Under the pieces are notes generated by a model that worked only from the letters and a program-made list of their open reading frames with translations, was not told the origin of the DNA and did no database searches. 64,000 nucleotides of DNA from Pseudomonas sp. HR96 (GTDB lineage: Bacteria > Pseudomonadota > Gammaproteobacteria > Pseudomonadales > Pseudomonadaceae). Made by a program: the position numbers and the translations under genes. Numbering within the stretch: position 1 is the first letter of the stretch; the number at the start of each line of letters is the position of its first letter. The stretch spans positions 2,525,001 through 2,589,000 of the forward strand of contig NZ_CP139141.1 in the NCBI RefSeq assembly GCF_034059295.1. The letters run 5' to 3'. Positions 1-42,100 of the stretch are shown one piece after another.

Positions 1-1
1 T

Positions 2-3000
2 ATCCTCAACAGCGGCACCATCAGCGGCCAGGACCTGGGGCTGCACCTGTTCAGCAGCAGCCTCAAGGGCTCCATCGTCAACGACGGGGTCATCACCGCC
101 AACACGGCCTTCAGCGGCACCACCGGCACCGCGCTGCGCCTGACCGGTGACGTGGTCGGCGGCAGCGTGGTCAACAACGGCCTGCTGGGCGGCTGGAACA
201 CCGGCCTGCAACTGGACCGCAACCTGATCAAGGGCGACGTGATCAACACCGGCACCATCTTCGGCAACCTGAATGCCGGCGTGCTGCTGACCTACACCGA
301 CGTCGATGGCGACCTGCACAACAGCGCCAGCGTCATCGGCGGCCTGCAGGACGGCATCCGCCTGGAAAACAGCAGCCTGAGCGGGGGCAGCCTGATCAAC
401 GATGGCTTCGTCGGCGGCTGGCGCGGCATCGTGCTGCAGAGCGCCAGTGTCGCCAAGGACCTGGTCAACACCGCGCGGGTGCAGGTGTCCACTGCCGCCA
501 TCGAACTGGATGGCAGCCGCGTGGGCGGTGCACTGATCAACAGCGGTTCGCTGTCGGGGCATTCGCTGGGCGTGCTGTACGTCAACGACCATTCGAGTGT
601 CGGCAACGGCATCACCAACAGCGGCAGCATCAGCAACGCGGCTGGCGGAGCGGCGATTCTGCTACAGGATTCACAGGTGCTGGACGGCGGCATCGTCAAC
701 ACTGGTAGCGCGAGCGGCTCTGGCGGCGGCTTGCTGGTGCAGGGCAGCACCGTCATCGGCGGCATCGCCAACGCCGGCACGATCGACGGCGGCAACGCCT
801 CGGTCAACGGCAACGACGGCCTGCGCCTGAACGCCAGCACGCTGATCGGCGACTTGAGCAACGTCGACGGCGGCACCATCAGCGGCCGCACCGCCATTGC
901 CATCGGCAACAGCACCCTGGCCGGCGATCTGTACAACGCCGGGACCATCACCAGCCCGACGCTGGGCGTGCACCTGTACAGCAGCAGCCTGCTCGGCTCG
1001 ATCGTCAACTCTGGGCAGATCACGGCGAACCCGGATCTGGTAGGGCAGACCGGTACCGGGATGCTCCTGAGCGCCAGCGTCATCGGCGGCTCGATCCGCA
1101 ACAACGGTTCGATCTTCGGCTGGAACACCGGCCTTGAGGTCGACAACAGCCAGGTCACCGGCAGCCTGATCAACAGCGGCTCGCTCTTCGGCGATTTCAA
1201 TGCCGGGCTTGCGGTGACCAACAGCACCATCGCCGGCGACCTGCAAAACAGCGGCCGGATCAACGGCGGGCTGATGGACATGATCCGCCTTCAGGGCAGC
1301 ACCGTGGGTGGCAGCCTGATCAACACCGGTTACCTGACCGGCGCCGGCCGCGGCATGGCGCTGCTCGATTCCTCGGTCGGCCAGGACGTGGTCAACAGCG
1401 GCAGCATGGCGCTGGGCACCTATGGCATCCAGATCGACCACAGCCAGGTCGGCGGCACCGTCAGCAACTCGGGGTCCATCTCCGGGCATTCCACGGCCAT
1501 CCTTTACGTCAGCAACGGCTCGACAATCGGCAACGGTATCGTCAACAGCGGCTCGCTGGTCAACTCATCCGGCGGCGCGGCGATTGCCGTGCAGGACTCG
1601 CAGATACTCGCCGGTGGCATCAACAACAGCGGCAATGCCTTGGGCGTGCGCGGCGGGCTGGTGGTCAATGGCAGCACCCTGGCCGGTGGCATCAGCAACA
1701 GCGGCCTGATCAGCGGCGACTACAACGGCGCTGGCGGCACCGGCGGCAACATGAATGTCGGCACCGGCGCCATCGAGCTGAACAACAGCACCCTGAGCGG
1801 CGGTTTCTCCAACAGCGGCACGGTGCAGAGCGCCGACGCGCTGATCCGTGGCAACAATGGCCTGTCTGTGAGCCAGAGCGTGATCAATGGCACGCTGGTC
1901 AACAGCGGCAGCATCACCGGCCATGACGGCATCAGCCTCGACCATTCGACCGTCAATGGCGACCTGGTCAACAGCGGCCTGCTCAGTGGCTACATCGCGC
2001 CGATCAACCTCAATGCCAGCGTGATCAACGGCAGCCTGGTCAATAGCGGCAATACCTTCGGCCTGACCTCGTTCTGGCTGCAAGGCAGCACCATCAGCGG
2101 CTCGGTGCAGAACAGCGCCAGCATGAGCGGCGGATTCCAGGGGCTGGTGGTGCGCGACACGGTGATCGGCGGCGACCTGATCAACTCCGGGGCGATTGGC
2201 GCGCACCTGGACGAGAACGAGATCAGCAACAGCTCGCTGCACGCCATCGTCAACTCCGGCAGCCTGTATGGCTACGACAATGGCTTGTCGATCCAGGGCA
2301 GCCAGGTCAGCGGCGGCATCGTCAACTCCGGGACCATTTCGGGGAGCGGGGTGGGCGTCAACATCGGCAACAGCACAGTCGCCAGCTTCGTCAACAGCGG
2401 CACCCTGAGCGGCTTCAACTACGCCCTGTTGGCCGACGCCAGCCTGCAGCAGCTGACCATCACCGGCGCCAACACCGCGGTGTTCTCCGGCGCGGTTCAG
2501 GCCCCTGAAACCCACGTGAGCATCGCCGAAGGCGCCGCCTACACCATGAACGCCGGCAACCTGTTCACCGTCGCCGACTTCACCAACTACGGCACCCTGA
2601 CCCTGGCCTCCAACGCCACCGGCACCATCGCCGGCAACTACATCCAGGACGCCAACGGCACCTTGAGCACCCAGGCGGTCAACGCCACCACCTTCGGCAA
2701 GCTCAACGTCACCGGCACCGCCACCCTGCCGGACCAGGCCAAATTCAATGTCGACGTGGTCGACAGCGGCCAGTCGTTCAACGGCGCCACCCTGAACAAC
2801 GTGCTCAGCGCCGGCACCCTGAACTCCAACGGCACCTACGCGGTGACCAGCAATTCGGCGCTGTACAACTTCAGCGGCGTCAAGGACGGCAACAGCGTCG
2901 ACCTGGTCGCCTCGCCCAAATCCACCAGCGCCGTGACCCAGGCCCTGCAGAGCAGCGGCGCCAGCACCAACCTCAGCGCCGCCCGCGTGCTCGACAGCGC

Positions 3001-4051
3001 CATCGCCAGCAACAGCAGCCTGACGCCGTTCTTCGTCGGCGCCACCAGCGGCGCCGGCGTCGCCAGCGCGGTCTCGCAGACCCTGCCGTCCAACGCCGTG
3101 GCCGCCAGCCAGGTCAGCCAGTCGACGCTGTCGACCATCACCGACGTGATCCAGTCGCGCATCGACGCCAACACAGGTCTGGCCTCCGGTGACGGGTTCT
3201 ACGGCGACAAGAACCTGTGGATGAAGCCGTTCGGCTCGTGGATCAACCAGAGCCAGCACGGCAACACCCCGGGCTACGACGCTTCGGTGTACGGCATGGC
3301 GTTCGGCGTGGACGCACCGGTCAACGAGCTGACTCGCCTGGGCGTGTCGTTCTCCTACGCCAACGCCGACACCAACAGCAAGGCCGACGTCGCCGCGCAG
3401 AGCGCCAAGGTCGACCTGTACCAGCTGATGGGCTACGGCAGCTACACCCTGGCGCCGGACACCGAGCTGAGCTTCCACGCAGGCGTGGGCCAGAACCGCA
3501 ACGACGGCGAGCGCAACATCAGCCTCAACGGCGTCGGCGGCAAGGCCAAGGCCGACTACGACAGCCGCAGCTTCACCGCAGGCGTGGCCCTGGCCAAGGC
3601 CTTCGACCTGAACCCGACCACGCGCTTCATCCCGTCGGTGCGCGCCGACTACACCTGGATGAAGGACGACAGCTACCACGAGAAAGGCAATGCGGCGCTG
3701 CAACCGCTGCTGCTGGACGTCGACAAGCACCAGACCGACCAGCTGATTCTTGGCGTCGACGGCAAGCTCAGCCACGAAATCGTCCCGGGCACGCAAGTGA
3801 CCGGCAACCTCGGGGTGGGCTACGACGTGATCCACGACGACTCGATGCTGACCTCGGCCTATGCCGGCGCGCCCGGGCAGACCTTCAACACCGTGGGGCA
3901 GAGCTCCAGCCCGTGGCTGGCGCGCGGTGGTGTCGGCCTGACGACCAAGATTGCCGCCAATGGCACGGAGCTGTCGGTGAACTACGACGCCGAAGCGCGC
4001 ACCGACTTCACCAACCAGACGGTGTCGTTGAAGTTGAAGATGCCGTTCTGA
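2..4051 (+). CDS. Giant autotransporter adhesin, 5'-truncated by window edge
   Basis: Type V secretion protein. The reading frame is open from base 2, so the signal peptide and the start of the passenger lie outside the window. The first ~830 visible codons are degenerate ~20-30 residue repeats rich in Asn, Ser and Gly (variants of 'NSGSISG' followed by 'S-T-V-x-G'), as expected for a beta-helical passenger. A non-repetitive stalk follows, then a C-terminal beta-barrel of ~270 residues starting near 'LWMKPFGSW' and ending in 'LKLKMPF'. The terminal Phe is the usual signal for outer-membrane barrel insertion. From base ~2513 to the stop the DNA is nearly identical to the inverted gene at 20386-26499. 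The protein probably acts as a surface adhesin or biofilm factor (family inference). No ligand can be read from the sequence. Confidence 0.93.
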   Translation: MLNSGTISGQDLGLHLFSSSLKGSIVNDGVITANTAFSGTTGTALRLTGDVVGGSVVNNGLLGGWNTGLQLDRNLIKGDVINTGTIFGNLNAGVLLTYTDVDGDLHNSASVIGGLQDGIRLENSSLSGGSLINDGFVGGWRGIVLQSASVAKDLVNTARVQVSTAAIELDGSRVGGALINSGSLSGHSLGVLYVNDHSSVGNGITNSGSISNAAGGAAILLQDSQVLDGGIVNTGSASGSGGGLLVQGSTVIGGIANAGTIDGGNASVNGNDGLRLNASTLIGDLSNVDGGTISGRTAIAIGNSTLAGDLYNAGTITSPTLGVHLYSSSLLGSIVNSGQITANPDLVGQTGTGMLLSASVIGGSIRNNGSIFGWNTGLEVDNSQVTGSLINSGSLFGDFNAGLAVTNSTIAGDLQNSGRINGGLMDMIRLQGSTVGGSLINTGYLTGAGRGMALLDSSVGQDVVNSGSMALGTYGIQIDHSQVGGTVSNSGSISGHSTAILYVSNGSTIGNGIVNSGSLVNSSGGAAIAVQDSQILAGGINNSGNALGVRGGLVVNGSTLAGGISNSGLISGDYNGAGGTGGNMNVGTGAIELNNSTLSGGFSNSGTVQSADALIRGNNGLSVSQSVINGTLVNSGSITGHDGISLDHSTVNGDLVNSGLLSGYIAPINLNASVINGSLVNSGNTFGLTSFWLQGSTISGSVQNSASMSGGFQGLVVRDTVIGGDLINSGAIGAHLDENEISNSSLHAIVNSGSLYGYDNGLSIQGSQVSGGIVNSGTISGSGVGVNIGNSTVASFVNSGTLSGFNYALLADASLQQLTITGANTAVFSGAVQAPETHVSIAEGAAYTMNAGNLFTVADFTNYGTLTLASNATGTIAGNYIQDANGTLSTQAVNATTFGKLNVTGTATLPDQAKFNVDVVDSGQSFNGATLNNVLSAGTLNSNGTYAVTSNSALYNFSGVKDGNSVDLVASPKSTSAVTQALQSSGASTNLSAARVLDSAIASNSSLTPFFVGATSGAGVASAVSQTLPSNAVAASQVSQSTLSTITDVIQSRIDANTGLASGDGFYGDKNLWMKPFGSWINQSQHGNTPGYDASVYGMAFGVDAPVNELTRLGVSFSYANADTNSKADVAAQSAKVDLYQLMGYGSYTLAPDTELSFHAGVGQNRNDGERNISLNGVGGKAKADYDSRSFTAGVALAKAFDLNPTTRFIPSVRADYTWMKDDSYHEKGNAALQPLLLDVDKHQTDQLILGVDGKLSHEIVPGTQVTGNLGVGYDVIHDDSMLTSAYAGAPGQTFNTVGQSSSPWLARGGVGLTTKIAANGTELSVNYDAEARTDFTNQTVSLKLKMPF

Positions 4052-11130: not shown

Positions 11131-11183
11131 GCCGGTCTCGCCGCTACATCACCGCTGTCCCTCAGTGCACGACCGGCTGCTTT

Positions 11184-11229
11184 CGACCCAAAGCGGACAC
11201 TGACAGTTAAACACTCTGTCCGCTTCTCG
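11184..11229. repeat. 'cgacccaaagcggac' element with inverted partner
   Basis: The exact 15-mer 'cgacccaaagcggac' lies at 11184-11198, followed after ~20 bases by 'tgtccgcttctcg' as an imperfect inverted partner. The exact reverse complement is at 15957-15971. It lies between the convergent ends of the reductase and the decayed monooxygenase. Confidence 0.6.
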
Positions 11230-11515: not shown

Positions 11516-11518
11516 TGA

Positions 11519-12250
11519 TCAAGTTCCGCTGATGGTTCCAGCCAGGGAATAGGGTGCTGTCATGTCGACCAGAAACAGCACGAGCGAGCTGTCCCCCTCC
11601 GCCTGGATGGAGGGCAGTGGTGCCTGCGCGGAGCTTACGCCGTCGCCTTTGCCAAGCGAGTGTTCACCCACGGTCACCTCGCCATCCAGCACATATAGCC
11701 AGGACACCAGGCCGGGCCGCTCGACCGGCGTTATCTGTTGGTCTGCGTTGAGCACCGTATCGTAGACATAAACCTGGTTGCGGATAATCAAGGGTGCCTC
11801 GCTGCCTTCCGGGCCCGCGACCCAACCCCATTCCCCGACCGGAGTGCCTTCAGCGCGTTCCAGAAAATGTACGTGCCCCGACAGGTCGGCCTCACGGGGG
11901 CGAACGAAGATCTGAAGCATCTCGACCGCTTCATCGGGGGTGCTTTCTTCATGCCAGAAGCTCTTACCGGCGTTCATCATCATGAGCTTGTTGCGGGAAA
12001 TCGGGATGATGTTCCCAGCCTTGTCCTCGTGAAGCATGCTGCCTTTCCACATGTAGCTGAGGATCTCGTCGTTCACATGCTCATGCATCTTCACGACTGT
12101 GCCGACGCCCAGGGTGGCGTGGTCAAATCCACTGAGTGGCCCCAGCGCCGGGTCTTTGCTGTTGGCATAAGCCAGGCCCGGTTTGACCCGTTCGATGTGA
12201 AACGAGCCTTGGCCATGTGTCGTACGTTGTTCGGCGCGGAAAATTTGCAT
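11519..12250 (-). CDS. Pirin family protein (YhaK-like bicupin)
   Basis: 243 residues. The N-terminal cupin shows 'LSGFDHATLGVGTVVKMHEH' followed by 'NDEILSYMWKGSMLHED', and the region 'SFWHEES' keeps the HxE pair of pirin-type metal sites. The C-terminal cupin is 'LYVLDGEVTVGEHSLGKGDG'. Pirins of this kind act as quercetinase-like dioxygenases or redox sensors (family knowledge). The start at 12250 is set by GGAGG six bases upstream. It is the fourth gene of the minus-strand operon running from 14944. Confidence 0.88.
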   Translation of the reverse strand: MQIFRAEQRTTHGQGSFHIERVKPGLAYANSKDPALGPLSGFDHATLGVGTVVKMHEHVNDEILSYMWKGSMLHEDKAGNIIPISRNKLMMMNAGKSFWHEESTPDEAVEMLQIFVRPREADLSGHVHFLERAEGTPVGEWGWVAGPEGSEAPLIIRNQVYVYDTVLNADQQITPVERPGLVSWLYVLDGEVTVGEHSLGKGDGVSSAQAPLPSIQAEGDSSLVLFLVDMTAPYSLAGTISGT

Positions 12251-20328: not shown

Positions 20329-21925
20329 TCCCACCGGTGGCTGCTCCTGCGCCGAGTCAACCCCATCCGGCCTGGCCGCACAGCATCAGAAAGGCATCTT
20401 CAACTTCAACGACACCGTCTGGTTGGTGAAGTCGGTGCGCGCTTCGGCGTCGTAGTTCACCGACAGCTCCGTGCCATTGGCGGCAATCTTGGTCGTCAGG
20501 CCGACGCCACCGCGCGCCAGCCACGGGCTGGAGCTCTGCCCCACGGTGTTGAAGGTCTGCCCAGGGGCGCCGGCATAGGCCGAGGTCAGCATCGAGTCGT
20601 CGTGGATCACGTCGTAGCCCACCCCGAGGTTGCCGGTCACTTGCGTGCCCGGGACGATTTCGTGGCTGAGCTTGCCGTCCACGCCAAGAATCAGCTGGTC
20701 GGTCTGGTGCTTGTCGACGTCCAGCAGCAGCGGTTGCAGCGCCGCATTGCCTTTCTCGTGGTAGCTGTCGTCCTTCATCCAGGTGTAGTCGGCGCGCACC
20801 GACGGGATGAAGCGCGTGGTCGGGTTCAGGTCGAAGGCCTTGGCCAGGGCGACACCTGCGGTGAAGCTGCGGCTGTCGTAGTCGGCCTTGGCCTTGCCGC
20901 CGATGCCGTTGAGGCTGATGTTGCGCTCGCCGTCGTTGCGGTTCTGGCCCACGCCTGCGTGGAAGCTCAGCTCGGTGTCCGGCGCCAGGGTGTAGCTGCC
21001 GTAGCCCATCAGCTGGTACAGGTCGACCTTGGCGCTCTGCGCGGCGACGTCGGCCTTGCTGTTGGTGTCGGCGTTGGCGTAGGAGAACGACACGCCCAGG
21101 CGAGTCAGCTCGTTGACCGGTGCGTCCACGCCGAACGCCATGCCGTACACCGAAGCGTCGTAGCCTGGGGTGTTGCCGTGCTGGCTCTGGTTGATCCACG
21201 AGCCGAACGGCTTCATCCACAGGTTCTTGTCGCCGTAGAACCCGTCACCAGAGGCCAGACCTGTGTTGGCGTCGATGCGCGACTGGATCACGTCGGTGAT
21301 GGTCGACAGCGTCGACTGGCTGACCTGGCTGGCGGCCACGGCGTTGGACGGCAGGGTCTGCGAGACCGCGCTGGCAACGCCGGCACCGCTGGTGGCGCCG
21401 ACGAAGAACGGCGTCAGGCTGCTGTTGCTGGCGATGGCGCTGTCGAGCACGCGGGCGGCGCTGAGGTTGGTGCTGGCGCCGCTGCTCTGCAGGGCCTGGG
21501 TCACGGCGCTGGTGGACTTGGGCGAGGCGACCAGGTCGACGCTGTTGCCGTCCTTGACGCCGCTGAAGTTGTACAGCGCCGAATTGCTGGTCACCGCGTA
21601 GGTGCCGTTGGAGTTCAGGGTGCCGGCGCTGAGCACGTTGTTCAGGGTGGCGCCGTTGAACGACTGGCCGCTGTCGACCACGTCGACATTGAATTTGGCC
21701 TGGTCCGGCAGGGTGGCGGTGCCGGTGACGTTGAGCTTGCCGAAGGTGGTGGCGTTGACCGCCTGGGTGCTCAAGGTGCCGTTGGCGTCCTGGATGTAGT
21801 TGCCGGCGATGGTGCCGGTGGCGTTGGAGGCCAGGGTCAGGGTGCCGTAGTTGGTGAAGTCGGCGACGGTGAACAGGTTGCCGGCGTTCATGGTGTAGGC
21901 GGCGCCTTCGGCGATGCTCACGTGA
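20303..21925 (-). repeat. Long inverted repeat, right copy
   Basis: Inverted partner of 2513-4134, covering the stalk, barrel and 3' flank of the second autotransporter. The two copies enclose 16.2 kb (4135-20302). Confidence 0.9.
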
Positions 21926-24900
21926 GCTTCAGGGGCGGACACTTCGCCGCTGAACACGGCGGTGTCGCTGCCGGCGATCATCAGCTGGGTCACGCTGCCG
22001 TTCTCCGACAACAGCGAGAAGCGGCCGCCGCTGATGGTGCCGCTGTTGATGACCAAACCGTTGATGGTGCTGTTGGCAATGTCCAGACCAATGGCGCCGC
22101 CGCTGATGGTGCCGCTGTTGATGACGCTGCCCACGGTGCTGCCGGTGATGGCGTTGCTGTCCTGGGAGACGATGCTGCCGCTGTTGTTGATGCCCCCGCT
22201 CAGCACGCTGTTGCTGACGCTCAGGGCGCTGTTGCGCGCGGAGATCGAACCGCTGTTGACCAGCATGCCGCCCACGGTGCTGCTGTTGACGATCAGGCCC
22301 TGGAGTGCGCCGCTGATGCTGCCGCTGTTTTTGAAGGCGCCGGTGATCTGGCTGCCTTCGATGTCCAGGCCGTTGCCGCGGCTGTTGATGATGCCGCTGT
22401 TGCTGAAGCTGCCCAGGCTGCTGGTGCTCACCGCGTTGCTGCCGAGGCTGTCGCTCAGCGTGCCACTGTTGCTGATGCCGCCGGTGATGGTGCTGTCGCT
22501 CAGGCTCAGGCCACGGGTGCCGCCGCTGACCAGGCCACTGTTGTTCAGCTGGCCGGCAACGCTAGTGCCCTGCAGGACAAGGGCGGTGTCGCCGCTGATG
22601 ACGCCGGTGTTGACGATGTCGCCGCTGATCGTGCTGTTGCTGGCCAGCAATCCGCCGCCGACGCCGGTCAGCGTGCCGCCGAGGTTGCTGATGCCGCCAC
22701 TGCCGATGCTCGAGTCGTAGATGCCGATGGCCGGCCCTGCCGTAGTGCTGACGCCGTCGCCAGTGTTGGTGATGGTGCCGCTGTTGACGATGGCGTTGGC
22801 ACTGGAGCCATTGGCCAGCCAGACCGCGCCCAGGTAGTTGGCGCTGATCAGGCCGCTGTTGGTCAGGGTGCCGCCAACACTGCTGTGATCCAGTTGCAGG
22901 CCGGTGATGGTGCCGCTGTTGTTCAGGTCATGGGTGATCTGCGAACTCTGGATGTCGTAGCCGTCGCCGATGCCGCGGATGTAGCCGCTGTTGACGAAGC
23001 TGCCCAGGGTGCTGTTGAGGATGGTCCCCGAACCCATGTAAGTGTTCAGGGTACCGGTATTGGTGATACCGCCATCGATGCTACTGTTGATCACGCTCAG
23101 CGAACTATTCTCGGTCCCGATCGAGGCGCCGTTGAGCAATTGGCCTGTGATCGAACTGCCGGTGATGAGCATGCCGCCGCGACCGGTGATGGTGCTGCCG
23201 GACTCGTTGATCAGATTGCCTTGCAGCCGGCTGTTGGTCAGCGCCACGCCGACATTGGAACCGCCAATGGCGCCCGAGTTGTCGATGTTGCCGATCACAG
23301 TGGACTGTTGCAGGTTCAGGCCGATGCGGCCCTGCACAGACCCCCGGTTGATCAGGTTGCCGGTCAGCACACTATTGCTCAGGGCCAGCCCGTCATTGCC
23401 CGTGGTGGTGAAGTTGGTGCTGTAGATCAGCTTGCCGGCGTTGTAGATGTCGCCATTGACCCGGCTGTTGCTGATCTCCAGCACACCGGCCGTGCCGCTC
23501 AGGTCCGCGCTGTTGCGAATGCCGCCGCTGCCGATCACCGAGTCGCTGATGCTGATGGCCGCCCCGAAGCCGTTGGTCATTTGTGCGCTGTTGACGATGC
23601 CGCCCACGCTGGACTGGCCAGCGACGTTGATCACCGCAGGGCCATAACTGCTCAGGCTGGTGCCGGAAATCGCCAGGGTGCCGCCGATGGTGCTGCCGGA
23701 CAGGCTGACGGCGCTGCCGTTGGCGGCGATCAGACCGCTGCTGACGACGTCGCCAGTCACGGTGGAGTTGGACAGCAGTACCCCCGTGTTGCCCGTGAGG
23801 GTGCCGGTGTTGCGGATGCCAGCATTGCCGATGACCGAATCGTAGACCCCGATGGCCGGGCCGGGCAGGCCGTTGGCGCCATTGTTGGTCAGGCTGCCGG
23901 AGTTGACGATGCCGGCAATGGTGGAATGCCCCTCGATGTCCAGCGGGCCATGGTAGTTGAGCGTCATGGTGCCGCTGTTCTGCAGGGTGCCGCCGATGGT
24001 GCTGGCGCTGATGTAGAGGCCGCCCATGGTGCCGGCATTGACCACGTCGCCTGTGACCCGATCGGCGTTCAGGTAGAGCGACGGGCCCTGGCCAAAGATG
24101 CTGCCGCTGTTGACGAAACTGCCCAGGGTGCTGTTGGCAATGATGCTGGAACTTTCGTTCGAGCGCAGGGTGCCGGCGTTGGTGATGCCACCTGTGACCA
24201 CGCTGTCGTTGACCGCCAGGCTGCTGAACTTGGTCGAGGCATTGCCGTTGTTGTCCAGCTGGCCACCGATGGTGCTGTTGTTCAGGTTGATGCCATAGCG
24301 GCCGCCCACGCTGCTGCCGATCTCGTTGGTCAGGTTGCCGGTCACCAGGCTGTCGACCAGATTGATGCCGGTGCCGAAGGCACCATTGGCAGCCCCCGAG
24401 TTGTCGATATTGCCGATCACCGTCGACTGCTCCAGCGACAGCGCATTGAAGCCTGAGAGCACGCCGCTGTTGATGATGTCGCCGTTGAGCGTACTGCCCT
24501 TGAGGCCCAGCCCGTCCACGGTGGCGGTCACGAAATTCTGGGTGGTGACCATGCTGCCCGAGTTGTTGATATTGCCATTGACCAGGCTGTTGCTGATCAG
24601 CACGCCGCCGTCGGTGCCACTCAGGCTGCCGCTGTTGGTGATGCCGCCGCTCTGGATCGCCGAGTGGTCGAGGTCGATGGCCACGCCGTTCTTGCCTACG
24701 TTGCCGGTGTTGATCAGGCCTTTGCCGATGGAGGAGCCGCCGCTGATGTACAGCCCGCCCGTCATCGTACCGCTGTTGTTGAACTGGCCGCCGATGCTGC
24801 TGCCGGTCATCACCAGCGCGGCACCGCCGGTGTTGATCGAACCGGTATTGATCAGGTCCTTGGCGATGCTGGAGTTGCTCAGGCTGATGCCCATCGAGGC

Positions 24901-26499
24901 GCTGGTGTTGCCGTCGTTGACCAGGCTGCCACCCAGGTTGCTGCGGTCGAGGCTGACGGCGAAGTAAAGCGCGCCGATGCTGCCCTTGTTGATCAGGTCG
25001 CCGCGCGTGTCGGTCTGGGTCAGCACCAGGCCGTTGGCGTTGTTGCTCTGGATGCTGCCGGTGTTGAGGATGTCGCCATCGAGCGAGCTGCGGTTGAGCT
25101 GCAGGCCGCTGGTGAAGCCGGCGATGCTGCCGCCGTTGACGATGTCGCCGCGCAACACGTCGGTGGTCAGCAGCAGGCCGGTGCCATTGCTCGAGGAGAT
25201 CACCCCGGTGTTGGTCAGCGAACCTTTCAGGCTGCTGCTGTACAGGTGCATGCCCTGGTCGGCGCCGGTGATGGTGCCGCTGTTGACGATGTTGCGCCCC
25301 AGCACCGAGCCACCGATGTGCGCGCCGGCGCCGCCGGCCGTGCCGCCGGCGATGGTGCCGGAGTTGTCGATGTCCTTGGCCACGCTGGACAGCTGCACGT
25401 CCAGGCCGTTGCCGATGTTCGGGTTGGGCGCGCCTTGCCAGTTGGGCGCCAGGATGCCCAAGGTGCCGGTGTTGGTGATGCCGCCGCCGAGGTGGGCCTG
25501 GGTGACCTGCACGGCGAAGTCGCGGCCGGTGATGCTGCCGCTGTTGCGCAGAGTGGTGAGGCTGCTGCCGTCGGCGATCTTCAGGCCGGTGCTGCCGTCG
25601 ATGCGGCCACTGTTGTTGACGTTGCCGCTGACCTGGGTGTTGTCCAGCAGGACTGCGGTCTGCTGCGCCCACAGGCTGCCACTGGTGGTGACCGAGCCGC
25701 CGACGCTGTCGTTGGTGAGGGTCAGGGCATTCTTGCCGCCCGCCGCGCTGCCTTGCACGCTGACACTGCCGCCGACCTGGCTGCCGTCAACAATGATGGC
25801 GTAGTCGCTGCTGTTGATGTTGCCGCTGTCCAGCACGCTGCCTTTGATGGTCGAGGCTTGCACGTTGAGGCCGGTGTTGGCGGAAATGGCGTTGCGGTTG
25901 TCGAGGTTGCCGGCCAGCACCGAGCCCAGCACGGAGATGCCGTTGCCGGTGCTGGCGATGCTGCCCAGGTTGCGGATGTAGCCATCGAGGCTGGAGTTCT
26001 GCAGGCGGATGCCGTCGCCACCAGTGCTGGCGGTGAGCCGGCCGCCGGCGGCATTGAGCACCGAGCCACTGGCCGAAGTGCCGTCTATCAGCACGGCCGA
26101 GCTGCCGTTGCCACCGCTGAGCAGGCCGGCGTTGCGGATCAACACGCTGTTGTTGACCACACCGGTGGTCGGCACGCTGGCGGCGGCGCCCAGCAGCACG
26201 CCAGGGCCGTTGGCGACGATCGAGCCGTTGGAGGTGACATTGACCGTGCCGCCGCTGGCCAGGGTGCAGGTAATAGTGCGGGCGCCATTGATGGTGCTGG
26301 CTCCACCGCTGGCGCAACTGCCGGCCGCCATGGCCGCGCCGGGCAGCAGGCCAGTGAGGCCAACGCCCAGGCCCAGCGCGATGGCGCTGGCCAGCAGCTT
26401 GCGCCCGGAGGTGGGTTTGCCACGCGACTTGGCGTTTTCATGGGTCACCACGAATGCACCTTGGGCGTCGCTCCAGACAACACGGTGGGCTTTGTTCAT
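20386..26499 (-). CDS. Giant autotransporter adhesin, complete (2037 aa)
   Basis: Type V secretion. The N-terminus is an extended signal peptide region (ESPR: 'MNKAHRVVWSDAQGAFVV') followed by a basic stretch and the hydrophobic core 'LLASAIALGLGVGLTGLLP' with an 'AMA-A' cleavage site near residue 59. Residues ~60-1640 are degenerate repeats rich in Asn/Ser/Gly/Thr, expected to form a long beta-helix. A stalk follows and a ~270-residue barrel ends in 'KLKMPF'. 'aagga' precedes the ATG. A strong sigma-70 promoter lies ~55-85 bases upstream. Neighbouring upstream genes are a lipoprotein hydrolase and a sulfotransferase-glycosyltransferase fusion. Likely a surface adhesin; the ligand is not readable from the sequence. 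Confidence 0.95.
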   Translation of the reverse strand: MNKAHRVVWSDAQGAFVVTHENAKSRGKPTSGRKLLASAIALGLGVGLTGLLPGAAMAAGSCASGGASTINGARTITCTLASGGTVNVTSNGSIVANGPGVLLGAAASVPTTGVVNNSVLIRNAGLLSGGNGSSAVLIDGTSASGSVLNAAGGRLTASTGGDGIRLQNSSLDGYIRNLGSIASTGNGISVLGSVLAGNLDNRNAISANTGLNVQASTIKGSVLDSGNINSSDYAIIVDGSQVGGSVSVQGSAAGGKNALTLTNDSVGGSVTTSGSLWAQQTAVLLDNTQVSGNVNNSGRIDGSTGLKIADGSSLTTLRNSGSITGRDFAVQVTQAHLGGGITNTGTLGILAPNWQGAPNPNIGNGLDVQLSSVAKDIDNSGTIAGGTAGGAGAHIGGSVLGRNIVNSGTITGADQGMHLYSSSLKGSLTNTGVISSSNGTGLLLTTDVLRGDIVNGGSIAGFTSGLQLNRSSLDGDILNTGSIQSNNANGLVLTQTDTRGDLINKGSIGALYFAVSLDRSNLGGSLVNDGNTSASMGISLSNSSIAKDLINTGSINTGGAALVMTGSSIGGQFNNSGTMTGGLYISGGSSIGKGLINTGNVGKNGVAIDLDHSAIQSGGITNSGSLSGTDGGVLISNSLVNGNINNSGSMVTTQNFVTATVDGLGLKGSTLNGDIINSGVLSGFNALSLEQSTVIGNIDNSGAANGAFGTGINLVDSLVTGNLTNEIGSSVGGRYGINLNNSTIGGQLDNNGNASTKFSSLAVNDSVVTGGITNAGTLRSNESSSIIANSTLGSFVNSGSIFGQGPSLYLNADRVTGDVVNAGTMGGLYISASTIGGTLQNSGTMTLNYHGPLDIEGHSTIAGIVNSGSLTNNGANGLPGPAIGVYDSVIGNAGIRNTGTLTGNTGVLLSNSTVTGDVVSSGLIAANGSAVSLSGSTIGGTLAISGTSLSSYGPAVINVAGQSSVGGIVNSAQMTNGFGAAISISDSVIGSGGIRNSADLSGTAGVLEISNSRVNGDIYNAGKLIYSTNFTTTGNDGLALSNSVLTGNLINRGSVQGRIGLNLQQSTVIGNIDNSGAIGGSNVGVALTNSRLQGNLINESGSTITGRGGMLITGSSITGQLLNGASIGTENSSLSVINSSIDGGITNTGTLNTYMGSGTILNSTLGSFVNSGYIRGIGDGYDIQSSQITHDLNNSGTITGLQLDHSSVGGTLTNSGLISANYLGAVWLANGSSANAIVNSGTITNTGDGVSTTAGPAIGIYDSSIGSGGISNLGGTLTGVGGGLLASNSTISGDIVNTGVISGDTALVLQGTSVAGQLNNSGLVSGGTRGLSLSDSTITGGISNSGTLSDSLGSNAVSTSSLGSFSNSGIINSRGNGLDIEGSQITGAFKNSGSISGALQGLIVNSSTVGGMLVNSGSISARNSALSVSNSVLSGGINNSGSIVSQDSNAITGSTVGSVINSGTISGGAIGLDIANSTINGLVINSGTISGGRFSLLSENGSVTQLMIAGSDTAVFSGEVSAPEAHVSIAEGAAYTMNAGNLFTVADFTNYGTLTLASNATGTIAGNYIQDANGTLSTQAVNATTFGKLNVTGTATLPDQAKFNVDVVDSGQSFNGATLNNVLSAGTLNSNGTYAVTSNSALYNFSGVKDGNSVDLVASPKSTSAVTQALQSSGASTNLSAARVLDSAIASNSSLTPFFVGATSGAGVASAVSQTLPSNAVAASQVSQSTLSTITDVIQSRIDANTGLASGDGFYGDKNLWMKPFGSWINQSQHGNTPGYDASVYGMAFGVDAPVNELTRLGVSFSYANADTNSKADVAAQSAKVDLYQLMGYGSYTLAPDTELSFHAGVGQNRNDGERNISLNGIGGKAKADYDSRSFTAGVALAKAFDLNPTTRFIPSVRADYTWMKDDSYHEKGNAALQPLLLDVDKHQTDQLILGVDGKLSHEIVPGTQVTGNLGVGYDVIHDDSMLTSAYAGAPGQTFNTVGQSSSPWLARGGVGLTTKIAANGTELSVNYDAEARTDFTNQTVSLKLKMPF

Positions 26500-26856: not shown

Positions 26857-27708
26857 TCAGGGCGCGCGGGCGTCCTGGACTTCGTGCAATACCGGCTCGA
26901 CCAACCCGGCCCAGTCCCGGGCCCAGCAACACTGGTGCTGAAAACCGTCGACCACCACCACCTTGGCCCGGGGCAGGCCGTCGGCAAAACCCTGGGCCAG
27001 CTCAGCGGGCATGTTGCTGTCGCGCCCGCCGACAAAATGCCATTGCGCCAGCGCAGCCAGGCGGCTGCGCTGGGCCATGGGGTCGAGGGAGCCGGCCAAT
27101 GGTGTAACCCGATGGATACGCGTCCAGCCTGCCGGGTCGAGGTTGCCGGCCACCGTCACCAGGGCGGCGATATCGCTGCGCCGCTCGGCCAGCAGGGCCG
27201 CCACCGCACCGCCGCCGGAATAGCCGACCAGCACCAGGCGGCGGGCGCCGGCGCGGGCCTTGAGTTGGTCGACGGCCTGGTTGCTGGCGTCGATCACCGC
27301 TGGCGAGAAACGCTGGACGGTCCAGTCGGCCTGGTTGCAGCGTGGGTCCTGGCGGCCGCTGTACTGGCATGGCCGGGCCAGGTAGGCCACCGCGCCGCGC
27401 GGCTGCGCCACGGCCAGGCGCAGGCCCACTGGGTCGAGCGGCGTGGGGTCGTCGGAGGCAGTCGAGGAGGAGAGCCAGGCCAGGCCGTCACCTTCGATGT
27501 AGACCGTCAGCAGCCCGTCGCCAGCGGCGGCTTGTGCAGGTCCGGCCCAGGCGGCGAGGGTAAAACTGCCGGTGCGCAACTCCAGGGCCTGCCACTGGGC
27601 GGCCGCGGTCAGGCCGCTGGCGGTCTGTTCGCGGCTGGCATGGGGCGGTACCCCGGCGCACGCGGCCAGTAGGGCGAGGCCCCAGGCCAGGCTCAGGCGG
27701 GCGTTCAT
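26857..27708 (-). CDS. Alpha/beta-hydrolase lipoprotein
   Basis: 283 residues. 'MNARLSLAWGLALLAAC' is a lipoprotein signal with lipobox LAAC (lipidated Cys17). The nucleophile elbow is 'LVGYSGGGAVAALL', a likely acid is within 'HFVGGRDSNMPAEL', and the His is in 'VVVDGFQHQCCW'. It is an esterase-like protein anchored to the inner or outer membrane. The ATG overlaps the stop of the upstream fusion gene (ATGA), so the two are co-translated. Longer upstream readings of this frame are only shadow of the fusion gene. It lies between the fusion enzyme and the autotransporter promoter, about 270 bases from that promoter. Confidence 0.85.
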   Translation of the reverse strand: MNARLSLAWGLALLAACAGVPPHASREQTASGLTAAAQWQALELRTGSFTLAAWAGPAQAAAGDGLLTVYIEGDGLAWLSSSTASDDPTPLDPVGLRLAVAQPRGAVAYLARPCQYSGRQDPRCNQADWTVQRFSPAVIDASNQAVDQLKARAGARRLVLVGYSGGGAVAALLAERRSDIAALVTVAGNLDPAGWTRIHRVTPLAGSLDPMAQRSRLAALAQWHFVGGRDSNMPAELAQGFADGLPRAKVVVVDGFQHQCCWARDWAGLVEPVLHEVQDARAP

Positions 27709-30629
27709 GGGCGCACCGCCGGCGGCGTCGCCAGGGCGGCCGGCAAGGCCTGACAGACCTGCTCGATGACGCCCGGCCAGGCGCCAAAGGTGGCCTGGCG
27801 AAAGATCCGCAGGCGCGGGTACCAGGGGCTGTCGAGGCGGTCCTTGAGCCAGCGCCATTCGTTGTCGAAGCGGTCGAGCATCCACACCGGCACGTCGAGG
27901 CCACCGGCCAGGTGCACCAGCACCGAGTCCACGGAGATCACCAGGTCGAGGTTGGCCACCAGCGCGGCGGTGGTGGCGAAGTCGCCCAGGTCGCCGGTCC
28001 AGTCCAGCCAGTCGACCTCGGGCCCGGGGCGCGAGGCTTGCACCCCGGCGGGCCATTTCTGCAGATTGACCCAGCTCACGCGTCCGGCAGCGGCTTCGAA
28101 CAGCGGCTGCAGGTGGGCGAAATCCAGGCTGCGCCGCTGGTTGTAGCGATAGTCGGCGCGCCCGGCCCAGGCCAGGCCGATGCGCAGGCGCCCAGGCGCG
28201 GCGGCCTGCAGCCGGGACCGCCAATACTCGGCCGCAGGCTGCGGCACTTTCAGGTACGGCAGCTGTGCCGGCACGCTGTCCACGCGGGTGGCGAAGGCCC
28301 CCGGCAACGACATCAGCGGGCACTGCCAATCCCAGCCCTCGAAGTGCTCGGGCAGGCCGTGGAAGATCACCACCTGCTCGCCGAAGGAGTCCTGCATCAG
28401 GCGCAGCACCGGGGTCGAGCAGGCCAGGCCGACCCGCGCGAAGCGCGTCACCAGCAGGTTCAGGTAACGCGCGAACTGAAAGGTATCGCCAAAGCCCTGC
28501 TCGATGATCACCAGCAGGCTCTGCCCGCTGGCCGGCTGGCCGTGCCATTGCGGCAAGGGGCAATCGGGGCGCTTGAAGGTCTCGAGCGAGGCTTCGGCAG
28601 AGCCGGTCCAGCGCGCCTCGTAGTTGGCCCAGCCGGCCTGCCAGTCGCCCAGTTTGAGTTGCGCCAGGCCCAGGTTGAGCCGCGCCATGGCCAAGTGCGG
28701 GTCCAGCGCCAGGGCCTGGGCGAAGCAGTCGCGCGCCGCTTCGGTACGGCCCAGGTCCTGCAGGGCGAAGCCCTTGCTGTTATGCACGCTGGCGGCCTGG
28801 GGCAGCAGGGCAAGGGTTTGCTCGAAGAGGGCCAGTGCCTGCTCGAAGCGGCCCTGGTGGTAGAGCGCGATACCGGCCTGGTGCAGGCTGTCGGCCTGCG
28901 CCAGCTGCATGGCCTGCAGCAGCTGCGGTTCGTCGTCGCGGCTGTCGCGCCAGGCCTTGACCTGCTGATACAGCGGCCACAGGTGGCGGGCGAAATGTTT
29001 CCAGCGCGCCACCGAGCTGCTGTACAACGGACGGCGGACCTGGGCCACGCTGGCGGTCTTGACCGGCCGCGGGTTGCGATGAAACTCCAGGCAGCGGGGG
29101 TCCCAGGGCAGGCCGACGAATTGCAGTACGCGCCGGGCCTGGCCCTCGGGGTCGGCGATCAGCGCCTCATAGTCCAGGTCAAGGAAGGTGCCGGCCGGCA
29201 GCACCTGCTGCCAGTGCTCCATCAGTTGCCGGTAGCGCACGTAGTAGCGGCCCAGCGCCTGCTGGTCGTAGGCAAAGTCCATGGTCTCGCCGAACAGCCG
29301 CGCATAGCAGGAAAAGCACGAGTCCATGGGGTCGCGGCGGGCATGGATGATGCGCGCGCCGGGCAGGGCCAGGTGCAGCAGGCCCAGATAGAAGAAATTG
29401 GCCGGCATCTTGTCGGTGATCAAGGCGCTGTCCGGCGCCAGTTGCCACACCTCGCGCAGGTAGGCCTGGCCAATGTCGCGTATCTGGTCTTCGTCCAGGC
29501 CCGTGGCGCCCTCCGGGTAGCCTGGCGCGCCGCAGCCGGCGGTGATGACCGTGCCCAGCGTCGGCAGCTCGCCGGCGCCATGCACCTGGGCATGGCTGCA
29601 GAGGATCTGCTCGAGCAGCGTGGTGCCGGAGCGCGGCATGCCAACGATGAACACCGGGCGCCGCTGCGGGTCGACAGCGCCTTGCCAGTGCGCGCGGGCG
29701 GCGAAGAAGTCGGCGTCGAAAGTGGCGATGATGCGTTGCTGCAATGCCTGGGCCGCGCTGTCGTCGTAGCCATGGGCGGCGTACTGCAAGCGGTTGCCTT
29801 CGTCATAGGCGGCGAACGCCGCGTCATAGGCGCCGGCATCGTCCAGCGCCTTGCCCAGGGCGAAGCTGTAGCGCACGCGGGTCTCGTAGGGCCATTGTTC
29901 GCGCCCGGCGTGCAGGCCTTGCAGCAGGGCCAGATGCGGGTCGTCCGGGCGGTAGGTGTGCAACGACGAGTAGTTGTAGTGGGCGGCGACGAAATCGCCC
30001 TGGGTGGCGATTGCCGCTTCGAAGCAGGCACGGGCCTCGTCCAGACGGCCTTGCTCGGCGTACAGCGCACCGAGGTTGTTCTGCGCCTGGGCATGGCGCG
30101 GGTCCAGGCTGATGGCCTGCCGATAGGCGACCTGCGCCGCCTCGCGGTCGCCCGGCGCGTTGCGCAGCTCGAGCAGCGAACCGAGGTTGTTCCATGCCGC
30201 CCCGTAGCCTGGCGCCAGCGCCAGGGCGCGGCGATAGGCCGGCTCGGCGCGCGGGTGATCGCCTTGTTCGGCGCACGCCAAACCCAGGTTGTACCAGGCC
30301 AGCGGGTCGTCGGGCAGCAGTTCGCAGGCCTGGGTGGCAGCTTGCGCCGCGCCGGCCAGCTGCCCCTGGCGCCGACGGATTTCGCCCAGGTTGCGCCAGT
30401 ACAGGCCTTCGTCGGGGCCGTGCGCCAGGGCCTGCTCGATCAGCTCGCCAGCCAGCGGCAACTGCTGCGCGGCGACCGCCAGCAGCCCCAGCGCGTGCCA
30501 GGCCGGGTGAAAGTCGGGCTCCAGGGCCAGCAGTTGCCGATAGGCCTGCTCGGCCCGCTGCGCCTGGCCGTCGTGTTCCAGTTGCCGGGCTTGTTGCCAG
30601 AGTTGCTGCACCTGAAGGGATGGGCTCAT
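27705..30629 (-). CDS. TPR-sulfotransferase-TPR-glycosyltransferase (GT9-like) fusion
   Basis: 974 residues. Residues ~1-215 are TPR repeats ('AWYNLGLACAEQGDHPRAEP', 'AQNNLGALYAEQGRLDEAR'). Residues ~320-570 are a sulfotransferase with the PAPS 5'-phosphosulfate loop 'FIVGMPRSGTTLLEQIL' (~327-343) and the 3'-phosphate site 'HARRDPMDSCFSCY' (~429-442). Further TPRs ('AASVHNSKGFALQDLGRTEA') lie at ~590-690. The C-terminal ~260 residues match the glycosyltransferase part of TPR/GT9-like proteins: 'IIEQGFGDTFQFARYLNLL', 'IGLAWAGRADYRYNQRRSL', 'NLDLVISVDSVLVHLAGGL', 'DSPWYPRLRIFRQ'. Cytosolic; no signal. TPR-linked transferases often modify proteins. The neighbour is a Ser/Asn-rich autotransporter, so it may glycosylate and sulfate the passenger before export (inference). 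Confidence 0.88.
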   Translation of the reverse strand: MSPSLQVQQLWQQARQLEHDGQAQRAEQAYRQLLALEPDFHPAWHALGLLAVAAQQLPLAGELIEQALAHGPDEGLYWRNLGEIRRRQGQLAGAAQAATQACELLPDDPLAWYNLGLACAEQGDHPRAEPAYRRALALAPGYGAAWNNLGSLLELRNAPGDREAAQVAYRQAISLDPRHAQAQNNLGALYAEQGRLDEARACFEAAIATQGDFVAAHYNYSSLHTYRPDDPHLALLQGLHAGREQWPYETRVRYSFALGKALDDAGAYDAAFAAYDEGNRLQYAAHGYDDSAAQALQQRIIATFDADFFAARAHWQGAVDPQRRPVFIVGMPRSGTTLLEQILCSHAQVHGAGELPTLGTVITAGCGAPGYPEGATGLDEDQIRDIGQAYLREVWQLAPDSALITDKMPANFFYLGLLHLALPGARIIHARRDPMDSCFSCYARLFGETMDFAYDQQALGRYYVRYRQLMEHWQQVLPAGTFLDLDYEALIADPEGQARRVLQFVGLPWDPRCLEFHRNPRPVKTASVAQVRRPLYSSSVARWKHFARHLWPLYQQVKAWRDSRDDEPQLLQAMQLAQADSLHQAGIALYHQGRFEQALALFEQTLALLPQAASVHNSKGFALQDLGRTEAARDCFAQALALDPHLAMARLNLGLAQLKLGDWQAGWANYEARWTGSAEASLETFKRPDCPLPQWHGQPASGQSLLVIIEQGFGDTFQFARYLNLLVTRFARVGLACSTPVLRLMQDSFGEQVVIFHGLPEHFEGWDWQCPLMSLPGAFATRVDSVPAQLPYLKVPQPAAEYWRSRLQAAAPGRLRIGLAWAGRADYRYNQRRSLDFAHLQPLFEAAAGRVSWVNLQKWPAGVQASRPGPEVDWLDWTGDLGDFATTAALVANLDLVISVDSVLVHLAGGLDVPVWMLDRFDNEWRWLKDRLDSPWYPRLRIFRQATFGAWPGVIEQVCQALPAALATPPAVRP

Positions 30630-30730: not shown

Positions 30731-35011
<4,281 letters not shown>

Positions 35012-35132
35012 CGGCAACCTCGCGACTTCCGCTTCTGCGACACCTGATCCTTGGATTGTGCCTCGCTGCCCCAAGCGTAGCGGATCCCTGCTGGAGCTGC
35101 CCGGGTGAAAAATCTTTTACTGCAAGCCGTGC

Positions 35133-35713: not shown

Positions 35714-38700
35714 TTAGTGCTCGCGTGGAAACAGCTTGCGACCGATGGACTGTTGCTCCGGCGTGAGTGCGTTGTACACCTGGTCATACTCACGTCTGGC
35801 TTTTGCCATATCCGCGATGCGCTGATTGCGCGCCAGTATTTCGTAAGCCGGACCCTGTTCGATCACCCGCAACTCTTCGGTGACGACCTGGATTCTGCGG
35901 CTGGCCATATAGAGTTGGAGGAACGCTACGGAGTTGTCGTCATAGATATTGAGTTCGTTTAATGACCTGTTCAAGCTGTCAACATTTAGCAGCAGGCGTT
36001 CCTTGAGTTCAAAATAGACTTCTCGATCAGAATATCTCCCGTCGGGATGCAATGGAGCTGCGTCCAGCTCCTTGGCCATCTGCTCCAAGGCTGTCTGTAT
36101 CTGCTGCTTGGCCAGACTGATACTCTGCCTGTAGTCTGTAGTCGCTATAAGGCTTGGATAGCTATCAGGTCCGACCATGACCAGTTCCTCGTACCGGGCA
36201 AGCTCTGCCAGTAGTGCAGCGGCACTGGCGCTCTTGTCCCGAGCATTATTGAAAGCGGTCAGCGCCGGACGGTCGCTTGGAATCTTGTCGACGATCACCT
36301 GGTCGAAATAGGCCTTGCGTTTGAGCGGGTCCATCAGAGCGAAGCCATGTTTCTGTAAAGCGTCGGGCACCTCATGGCCTCGGGCTTTTATCAAGACCTC
36401 ATGGACGTATGCTCCATTCATTTGCATTTTGTAAAGACCATTGAACGCTGCACCATAGCCCAATAACTGCTCCGCGCGTGTGGCGAGTTTGTACAGTGTA
36501 TGACCGATCATCCGGTAAACCCCGGTGCCCAGTACCTGGTGCCGATCGTAAATGTACCAACGGTCGGTGTCGCTGCGCTGATAACGCAATGGCGTCACCG
36601 TCGAAGCACTGTCTGCCGGTCGTGCTGCAAGATCTTCAAGCTCGAGGTCCAGAGTGCCCAAGGGAACTTGGCGGTAGTGGAAATCCATTGGCGAGTCGCG
36701 GTAATCCAGGTAGTCGAGGTCCACGACATAACGCTGAAAAGGTTGAACCACAAGGGGGTGATAGATACTAGGTTGCGCGTTTGGCGTCGAGGGTAATCCG
36801 CTGGCATCGTCGACAGCCTCCTCTGCTAGGCGCTTGGCCTCCGCCTCGAACTCGGGCTTGTTCAGCTTAGCCATGTAGTCAACGCCTATCGGGCCGCCTA
36901 TCACCGCCCCGAGGACGATCATGGGGCCGAGGATGTCGCTCATCGCGTTTTCGCTAATGCTGTTGTAAAGCGCAGGATTGTCCTTGATCCAAGTCTCGAT
37001 ATTGAAGGGTTTAGGGCTATTGTTGAGGCGTGTCTTGCTGTTCAAGATCCGCTTTATCTTGTCGTCTTCCAGTTTTTTTGCCTTGGCTGCCGCTTCGGCG
37101 ACTTTTTCCGCCTTTGTTTTCGCTGGGCCCGCAGGGATGCGCGCAGCATGCTCCTGGAGCTTCATCAACCTGGCCTTGGTTCGCTTTTTGATTGCTGCGA
37201 ACGCGGTGCCCAAGGCTTTGGGCAGCCTGAACACATCGCCCACTTTCAGGCCGGCGCCCAAAGCAAAGAGCTCAAGCATAATGTTGAGCATGATGGTGTT
37301 TCTGTAATAGGTGGCGTCCTCGACGGTGTCAGCATGCAATATTCGCTGCGAGTTGCTGCTTGCGGCTGAAGCGATGGCCGATATCGCCGACATGGCGGCG
37401 AGGGTACCGGACCCGGCGGTGGGGATCAGGGATACGGCGGCGAACGCCATTGCGACGATGCCGAAAATCCAACCCGCGACGTCGCCGTTATAGATATCCG
37501 CCTGTTCCTGTTCGTTGCGGGTCGCCTTATCCATCTGATTTTTCAAGTCGAGTTCCAGATCTGCAATCTGCCGTTCGGCTATCTCGCTCAGCGTCCGCCG
37601 AGGTCCGAGGGAGATCGCGACCCCATCGTAGGCGTGGTATTTGACCGATTCCGGAAGGGCATCGTATGGCCCCAATCCCGCCTGTAACCTCTGGTACTGC
37701 CCGATCAAGCCGGCATCGAACCGTGGGCTGCCATCGCTGCGTTTGGCCTTGAGCGCTTCCTGTAGAACTTCAGCGGGGATTCGTTTTGCAACGTAATCGG
37801 TGGGGAAAACTGTAGAGCGAGGCTTTTTTCCGTCCATGATCCCGACCAAAGTGGAATAGTCGCGAATTTGAAATTGATGGATCCGATGTGGGTTGCGTCC
37901 TTCGCCGACGCCCTCGCTATAACGCTCTCCGAATAACCTACGGGCCCTGCCGCCGGCCTGGGACACATCCGTCAGTGTTCCACTTTGCAGGAATAAAAGA
38001 AATTGCAGGTCCCAGGTTCTGTCGACGAACCCGACCACATTGCGCACTGTATCCGAAGCGGTTGCCCTGGCTTTATCCTCGAGCAGATCAACTTCGTGCA
38101 GCGATGCTTGCCCTGATTTCAATGCCTGAATCGGATTGTAGCCGGGTATCTTGACTCTGAGTCGAAGCATGTCCTGGATCAACTTCATACGGCCGTCCTG
38201 AAGGGCTGGACGGAGCCTTTCGAATTCCGGAGCCAACGCTTTCAGGTAGCTGGCTTCAAGATCCGTTGTCAGCATTTCCTTGTACAACTCTTTCGGTTCA
38301 GGCCCTCCAAGATCGTATCTGGATGCATCCTTCTTGACGTACAGCAGTGCATTGGTCTGTTCGGCTAGCTTGCCGGTCAACATATCGTACTCACTGATCT
38401 CTACTTCTTCGTCGATATACATGCGCCCGTCAGCAATCATCGGCTGGTAGGTGTAAGGGTTGCGCTCACGGGCTGCAAGCGACTGAAAGTGAGAAGTTCC
38501 CAGGGTCAGCACCCCCAACAGTGGCGAGCGCAGATCTTTATTCTGGCCGGAAACGTTCAATACGTGAGTGCGTTCGGCGTTGTAAGACTTTCGATCGGCG
38601 GGTAACTGGTCAGCGTATTTGCTGTAAAGCTGGTTGCCTATATGTTCCGCGTAACCCTCCGGCGTGAAGAGGTGGGCCGGCATTGTCGGTTTCTTATCCA

Positions 38701-41782: not shown

Positions 41783-42100
41783 GCCGACCTCTCGGGATCT
41801 CCAATGCACGCGGGCGATGGCGGGCATCTGGGCGAATTCAGTTGTGTGCCGAGTCAATATAGGCCGGTGGCAGCGTAGCTCGATGACTGTTATCTGCCGG
41901 TCAAAAGCGGCCTGAAAAGAAAGTGTCGGCGTCCACCGACTCAGCGCGTAGCCGGGTTCGCTGGAGCCGACCACTGAGCCGCAGGCATAAACAAAACGCA
42001 TCACCTCCCAAGCCCAACGCATTGGCTTGGAGCGCCGCCGGCTGCCACTCTGGTGCTCGAATCACCCGTTACTCAAAAACAATAACGACGGTCGAGCGCA
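41783..42100. other. Divergent intergenic region
   Basis: About 318 bases between the giant gene and the symporter gene. It must hold both promoters; no near-consensus pair stands out. The only clear element is the CA motif at 42078-42085. Confidence 0.5.
42078..42085 (+). promoter_or_regulatory. Crc/Hfq catabolite-repression (CA) motif
   Basis: 'aacaataa' fits AAnAAnAA exactly and lies 15 bases before the ATG of the dicarboxylate-type symporter, in the ribosome-binding region. In Pseudomonas, Hfq with Crc blocks translation at such motifs when preferred carbon sources are present (established). Confidence 0.7.

Follow-up and report, generated by a model that had tools for sequence, protein, structure and literature searches.

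A sulfotransferase-glycosyltransferase fusion encoded beside a giant autotransporter of Pseudomonas sp. HR96 as a probable adhesin-modification module

Our analyses of a 64,000-nucleotide stretch of the Pseudomonas sp. HR96 genome (contig NZ_CP139141.1, positions 2,525,001 to 2,589,000; hereafter the window) identify a 974-residue protein, P0001 (27705..30629, minus strand), in which a sulfotransferase (ST) domain of the tyrosylprotein sulfotransferase (TPST) fold and a GT9-like glycosyltransferase (GT) domain are combined with two tetratricopeptide repeat (TPR) blocks, and whose gene lies close to that of a giant autotransporter (AT). The adhesin-linked ST-GT module is real and conserved, and it probably modifies the autotransporter: because an ST-GT gene adjoins a large adhesin gene in several distantly related bacteria, the most natural reading is that the enzyme probably decorates the adhesin. 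We regard a dedicated, modular and cytoplasmic adhesin-modification system as the reading to be preferred, with somewhat better than even confidence.

The proposal starts from the domains, the fold, the catalytic residues, the conserved gene neighbourhood and, in relatives, a co-located kinase making 3'-phosphoadenosine 5'-phosphosulfate (PAPS), all of which are observed; what we infer is that the AT serves as substrate, along with the acceptor group, the sugar, the sequence of the reactions and what the TPRs and a neighbouring hydrolase do. The TPR blocks would hold the AT passenger while it is still unfolded, ahead of its export or in the course of it; the GT9-like domain would draw on a nucleotide-sugar to glycosylate it, and the TPST-fold domain would use PAPS to sulfate either the passenger itself or its glycan. 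Rich in Ser, Thr and Asn, the passenger would then leave through its own barrel, negatively charged, while the co-translated lipoprotein hydrolase would act at the outer membrane or the surface as a separate partner of the AT family.

Results

The reading frame of P0001 is free of internal stops. Its parts, all on the minus strand, are an N-terminal TPR superhelix with an OGT/PilF-like stack (residues ~5-286, 29772..30617; Pfam, predicted model and fold search), the ST domain (residues 318-567, 28929..29678; Pfam, conserved residues and fold search), a second TPR block (residues ~568-670, 28620..28928; Pfam and model), and the GT domain (residues ~690-967, 27729..28562), which carries EQGFGDT and SVDSxxVHLAG motifs and whose assignment by sequence is weak. 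The TPR matches in Pfam fall at residues ~10-220 and 577-660, and the N-terminal stack is presumed, by analogy with FlmG of Caulobacter, to bind the substrate. Residues 325-511 match Sulfotransfer_3 (PF13469) at an E-value of 4e-49 (168 bits against a curated cut-off of 27), with the PRSGTT loop at residues 332-337 and the RRDPMDS site at 431-437, and the predicted model has a mean pLDDT of 88.6. Given the ST E-value, the confident model and the conserved neighbourhood, the fusion is an observation far beyond chance.

R333 and R432 are invariant in all 77 aligned ST domains, while E354, K407 and S527 are kept in 73, 73 and 74 of them. P0001 carries the TPST-type arginine binding the 5'-phosphosulfate (5'-PSB) and the catalytic Glu, Lys and Ser positions (R333, E354, K407 and S527), all conserved; the residues are placed by the alignments, and we take them to be the counterparts of R78, E99, K158 and S285 of TPST2. 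Glu, Lys and Ser are missing in just two of the 24 AT-linked ST domains, namely the short STs of loci L085 and L087.

A first-pass annotation of the window had described P0001 as a fusion of PAPS-binding ST, TPRs and GT9-like transferase. The ST, both of its motifs and the TPRs are borne out, and the GT9 part reaches sub-threshold level only: Glyco_transf_9 (PF01075) matches the whole protein over a short stretch (residues 884-915) at 18.3 bits, and the GT domain alone at 20.2 bits, for a cut-off of 22. Among the 17 aligned members of the GT family, 16 match PF01075 at E<0.01. A profile search against structures gave eight matches that included GT9 structures, but at E-values of 0.27-0.76 and mixed with unrelated chains; TibC and GT9 chains are absent from the 50 structural matches listed for the P0001 model, which excludes nothing. 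No GT41 family occurs among the Pfam matches of P0001, and OGT chains owe their high rank in the fold search mostly to the TPRs.

The neighbourhood was compared over loci 8-31 kb long, so that absence of a gene means absence within the stretch fetched (five of the 34 AT-less ST loci are below 15 kb); because sampling was biased towards relatives of the query, the counts should not be taken as population frequencies, and kinship is not accounted for in the p-values. P0001 matched at E<=1e-30 in nine of 249 Pseudomonas genomes, the source genome included, and the complete fusion was found in only one, the window's own, which rules it out as a general Pseudomonas trait; a second complete fusion, from another genome collection, occurs in Pseudomonas sp. 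dw_358 (L013). The eight other matching genomes provided nine loci (L022-L030). Seven of these bear an ST (L022-L028), four with an AT (L023-L026) and two with an exporter operon and a large adhesin-like gene (L027, L028); the GT-only loci L029 and L030 have no AT match. Nine loci came from named genomes: six with at least 55% identity over the best segment (L013-L018), five of them with an AT, and three distant ones (L019-L021) without. Class, order and phylum samples added further loci: 20 places from a first search with 71 matching genomes among 369, and 17 places from the later searches, with G786, G773 and seven genomes found by the last search only left out; the order samples of G479 and G599, orders that we read as not Burkholderiales, comprised 57 and 54 genomes, eight and two of them with matches.

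A tree was built from 77 ST domains of these loci and of three loci found through the lipoprotein (L085, L087, L089). The ST domain of the window falls in a clade of eight (support 100/97), all of them AT-adjacent in differing gene orders: besides the window, Pseudomonas sp. dw_358 (L013), Paludibacterium purpuratum (L014), Candidatus Aquabacterium excrementipullorum (L015), G479 (L142) and G1138 (L196), the last two listed in the class of the window, and G994 (L197) and G1199 (L198), listed only in its phylum. The lipoprotein is present in seven of these loci (not L197) and cysC, the adenosine 5'-phosphosulfate (APS) kinase gene, in four (L013, L014, L015, L196). Over the whole tree the AT label needs seven changes against 20.7 after shuffling, and none of 500 shuffles came as low; near-copies aid clustering of this kind. 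A second AT-rich group joins the second ST of ST-GT-ST proteins with STs of L016, L142 and L198 (AT in six of seven rows, not L022), and a third comprises L023-L026, L089, L208-L210 and L201 (seven of nine rows).

With the three lipoprotein-found loci dropped, 16 of the 50 ST loci selected by P0001 bear an AT. The lipoprotein accompanies 11 of these 16 and none of the 34 AT-less loci (Fisher p 1e-7), a GT ten and one (p 7e-6), and cysC six and three (p 0.02), the three being L022, L027 and L028. Together, the uniform AT adjacency of the clade and the six AT-linked loci with cysC uphold the earlier suggestion that the ST-GT enzyme belongs with the autotransporter. On the AT barrel tree, ST/GT labels are scattered (10 changes against a mean of 12.9 in shuffles, with 12 of the 500 reaching as low; several branches are long), and therefore the modules were probably gained or swapped; a single simple origin of the AT linkage is rejected.

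The modules occur in several combinations. The order TPR-ST-TPR-GT is that of the window and L013; ST-GT-ST is found in L014, L015 and L196, with two Sulfotransfer_3 stretches in each of P0003, P0022 and P0029; GT-ST in L016; ST and GT as neighbouring genes in L025 and L026; ST without GT in L023, L024 and L089; two STs in L142 and L198; and GT alone in L017. The order first proposed, sugar and then sulfate, finds no support as an obligate one, since six of the 16 AT-linked ST loci lack a GT, and in L017 an AT is accompanied by a GT but by no ST. The two exporter operons consist of a large repeat adhesin-like gene followed by ST, TolC-like, ABC exporter, HlyD-like and APS kinase genes, where TolC-like and HlyD-like are names given by sequence reading. 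In L028 the adhesin-like protein has 2347 residues with bacterial Ig-like repeats (ABC and Ig-like by Pfam, APS kinase by phmmer); the genes of L027 match those of L028 by phmmer, its adhesin-like frame being cut by the contig start.

The APS kinase gene is itself variously placed: upstream of the fusion in L013, between a histidine kinase gene and the fusion; between AT and fusion in L015; after the lipoprotein in L014, L016, L026 and L196; at the end of the exporter operons in L027 and L028; and fused to TPR-ST in L022. For L013, L014, L016 and the L022 fusion the kinase is also recognised by Pfam (APS_kinase). In L086 the gene follows an AT-lipoprotein pair, with no ST found in the 12.7-kb stretch. 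The source genome has two full matches to APS kinase and a third, partial one, all away from the cluster; the free-standing enzyme is 58% identical to that of L013, while six cluster or fusion enzymes reach 63-69% and two exporter-operon ones 52-55%. The neighbour of this free-standing gene reads, by our naming, like a phosphomannomutase.

Discussion

The first alternative to be weighed is direct tyrosine sulfation, in which the TPST-fold domain, like human TPSTs, would sulfate tyrosines of the passenger without dependence on any sugar. The fold, the TPST-type catalytic Glu, Lys and Ser, and the presence of an ST at ATs without a GT in six of 16 loci speak for it. Acceptors of TPSTs are tyrosines in an acidic context, a context that the passengers here do not favour. 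We compared 14 passengers from ST loci with 29 from lipoprotein loci without an ST, leaving out L091 (too short) and L013, L024, L196, L208 and L209 (no full barrel). Tyrosine is not enriched in the former (1.75 vs 2.07%, p 0.27), tyrosines with two or more acidic neighbours are rarer (0.08 vs 0.24, p 0.002), and in the window passenger two of 23 tyrosines have at least two such neighbours. A tyrosine-sulfation signature is thus absent from the passengers by content as well as by acidic context, and their composition speaks against tyrosine as the acceptor without deciding; we consider this alternative unlikely. ST-locus passengers are richer in Ser+Thr (25.0 vs 20.4%, p 1e-4) and poorer in Asp+Glu (4.7 vs 8.7%, p 2e-5), and such low acidity could leave room for the charge of sulfate.

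A second alternative, to which we give little credence, is that the enzyme acts on another target, such as a surface polysaccharide, a lipid or a small molecule, and that its proximity to the AT reflects shared regulation or hitch-hiking. The first-pass annotation had held that wide occurrence of the fusion without an autotransporter would refute its proposal; the close family does not show this (AT in five of the six loci at >=55% identity, not in L018), and the wider ST family does, with no AT in 34 of 50 loci. The promoter scan likewise gives no support for a single transcript with the AT: the lipoprotein and AT genes are 357 bp apart, promoter and terminator scans of this interval found neither a sigma-70-like site nor a minus-strand terminator-like site, and upstream of the fusion one weak promoter-like site lies at 30831-30804, within the kinase gene. 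Against another target stand the eight AT-adjacent loci of the clade with their differing gene orders, and the fact that TPR-bound transferases of known target act on proteins, as does OGT. FlmG, as described in parts of PMC7591256, is a further case.

Modification of the autotransporter, our preferred reading, has to contend with several observations that weigh against it. Besides the AT-less ST loci just counted, the close GT relative L018 has neither AT nor lipoprotein match, and L022, with its cysC-TPR-ST fusion, has neither AT nor exporter operon; the distant STs of L144, L148, L159 and L160 adjoin genes read as TonB-dependent receptors. The AT is known by ESPR alone in L013 and L196, where the locus ends inside the gene, and by a partial barrel match in L024, L208 and L209. 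The GT9 assignment is weak and below the cut-off, and the window cluster lacks cysC. Kinship confounds the contrast in composition: Pseudomonas supplied 28 of the 29 passengers used for comparison, and the GT-only L017 the other. Moreover, the genome encodes nine AT barrels with the enzyme gene beside only one, and two of its other ATs (the second giant AT of the window and that of L177) are similar in composition with no ST, GT or lipoprotein match in the stretch read, the left flank of the former lying outside it.

It is very improbable that P0001 works on the passenger with just one of its halves in this strain and that the other is a relic, for instance for want of the cysC found between kinase and fusion in L013, as conserved residues are retained in both the ST and GT halves and two full APS kinases are still encoded in the genome.

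The lipoprotein alpha/beta-hydrolase (283 residues; 26857..27708, minus strand) has a lipobox LAAC (C17), and its start codon ATG at 27708 overlaps the TGA of the fusion as ATGA, in agreement with the co-translation first noted; position 26857 is the final base of its stop codon. All 25 aligned sequences share Cys17, Ser164 (GYSGGG), Asp230 and His258, and we read Ser164-Asp230-His258 as a putative catalytic triad. The model has a mean pLDDT of 93, its nearest structures being general esterases, lipases and dehalogenases (TM ~0.6). At E<=1e-15 the lipoprotein matched 97 places in 91 of 398 Pseudomonas genomes, and 43 of the 96 places besides the window were read (the 35 best-scoring and eight of the remaining 61). 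An AT lies within 4 kb at 32 of these 43 loci and at 5.4 kb at one more, with no AT match at ten. AT and lipoprotein are thus a common gene pair in Pseudomonas, and because 27 of the 32 AT-adjacent loci have no ST or GT match, the lipoprotein often accompanies an AT independently of these enzymes, a finding at odds with its suggested role as an editor of the modification. Other enzymes can occupy the place of the fusion at AT-lipoprotein loci, such as a 272-residue ST and a CxxxCxxC protein in L085 or an AMP-binding protein in L074. The CxxxCxxC protein lies between AT and lipoprotein in L085 (8113-9216) and L091 (8556-9245), the latter form matching no Pfam family; the motif is presumably a sign of radical-SAM enzymes. 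The L074 protein (10408-12042), CoA ligase-like, also lies between AT and lipoprotein.

The presumed substrate, the 2037-residue AT (20386..26499, minus strand), has an ESPR, a Ser/Asn/Gly-rich passenger and a beta-barrel, with ESPR and barrel both over the Pfam cut-off; the fusion lies upstream of it, as had been stated. A second giant AT (1..4051, plus strand; barrel 3170-4042), whose N-terminus lies beyond the left end of the window, is a possible further substrate and shares 91.5% DNA identity with the first over the final 2 kb. These two and a third paralog (L177, 3728-9619) are 81-92% identical in DNA over their last 1.7-2 kb, and one enzyme could therefore serve all three. Their passengers diverge more than the barrel ends, a pattern of recent duplication or gene conversion. 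Directly upstream of the fusion lies a CHASE-PAS hybrid histidine kinase gene (30731..35074, minus strand; Pfam), and in Pseudomonas sp. dw_358 a homologue of it precedes both cysC and the fusion. A 2102-residue protein (35714-42022, minus strand) matches no Pfam family at E<=0.01.

Several known systems resemble parts of P0001. BAHT transferases are GT9-like. In the BAHT pairs TibC/TibA and AAH/AIDA-I, a cytosolic sugar transferase decorates the passenger of the paired autotransporter, and TibC is described as a dodecamer with an N-terminal beta-barrel, a beta-hairpin thumb and a four-Cys iron finger (parts of PMC4358343). P0001 is likewise encoded beside its autotransporter; however, it has a helical TPR stack at its N-terminus and a TPR block before the GT in place of the beta-barrel, it carries a fused ST, and it lacks a conserved Cys set, the cysteines of its GT half (690, 737, 770 and 959) being widely spaced and no Cys standing in an invariant or nearly invariant column of the 17 aligned GT members. 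Without the N-terminal beta-barrel and iron finger, two defining features, P0001 is not a BAHT member.

In FlmG of Caulobacter, a TPR N-terminus binds the substrate protein, and sugar is transferred in the cytosol by a GT-B-like domain at the C-terminus; the second half of P0001 agrees with this architecture as far as the description of FlmG goes. The targets of FlmG are flagellins and its sugar is pseudaminic acid, and the passages of PMC7591256 concerned name neither sulfotransferase nor autotransporter. Human TPST1 and TPST2 have fold and catalytic residues in common with the ST domain, but are Golgi enzymes without TPR or GT. To our knowledge, little is known of sulfated proteins on bacterial surfaces, and for sulfated adhesins we found nothing in the open-licence literature, as judged by titles and the beginnings of abstracts. 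The one bacterial sulfated protein substrate that we met is RaxX of Xanthomonas, a 60-residue secreted peptide encoded with the TPST-like PAPS sulfotransferase RaxST and the type I exporter RaxAB, PAPS coming from housekeeping genes; no TPR or GT part is described for RaxST in the parts of PMC6637879 concerned, whereas P0001 has both. The combination of TPR-guided sulfation and glycosylation in one module is new to us, and sulfate on adhesins would add a novel type to their known decorations.

Conclusions

Whether adhesin sulfation is a widespread, mix-and-match trait of Proteobacteria, with TPR-guided STs, alone, GT-fused or doubled (ST-GT-ST), acting on type V autotransporters and giant type I-secreted adhesins and often having their own APS kinase, is in our judgement evenly balanced. 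If so, bacteria would display sulfated, mucin- or proteoglycan-like adhesins. With a dedicated enzyme and a source of PAPS encoded next to type V as well as type I adhesins, the sulfation of proteins or glycoproteins would become a strategy used generally at bacterial surfaces; it would bear on adhesion, on the charge of biofilms and on host or plant recognition, and the TPR-guided transferases would offer modules to protein engineers.

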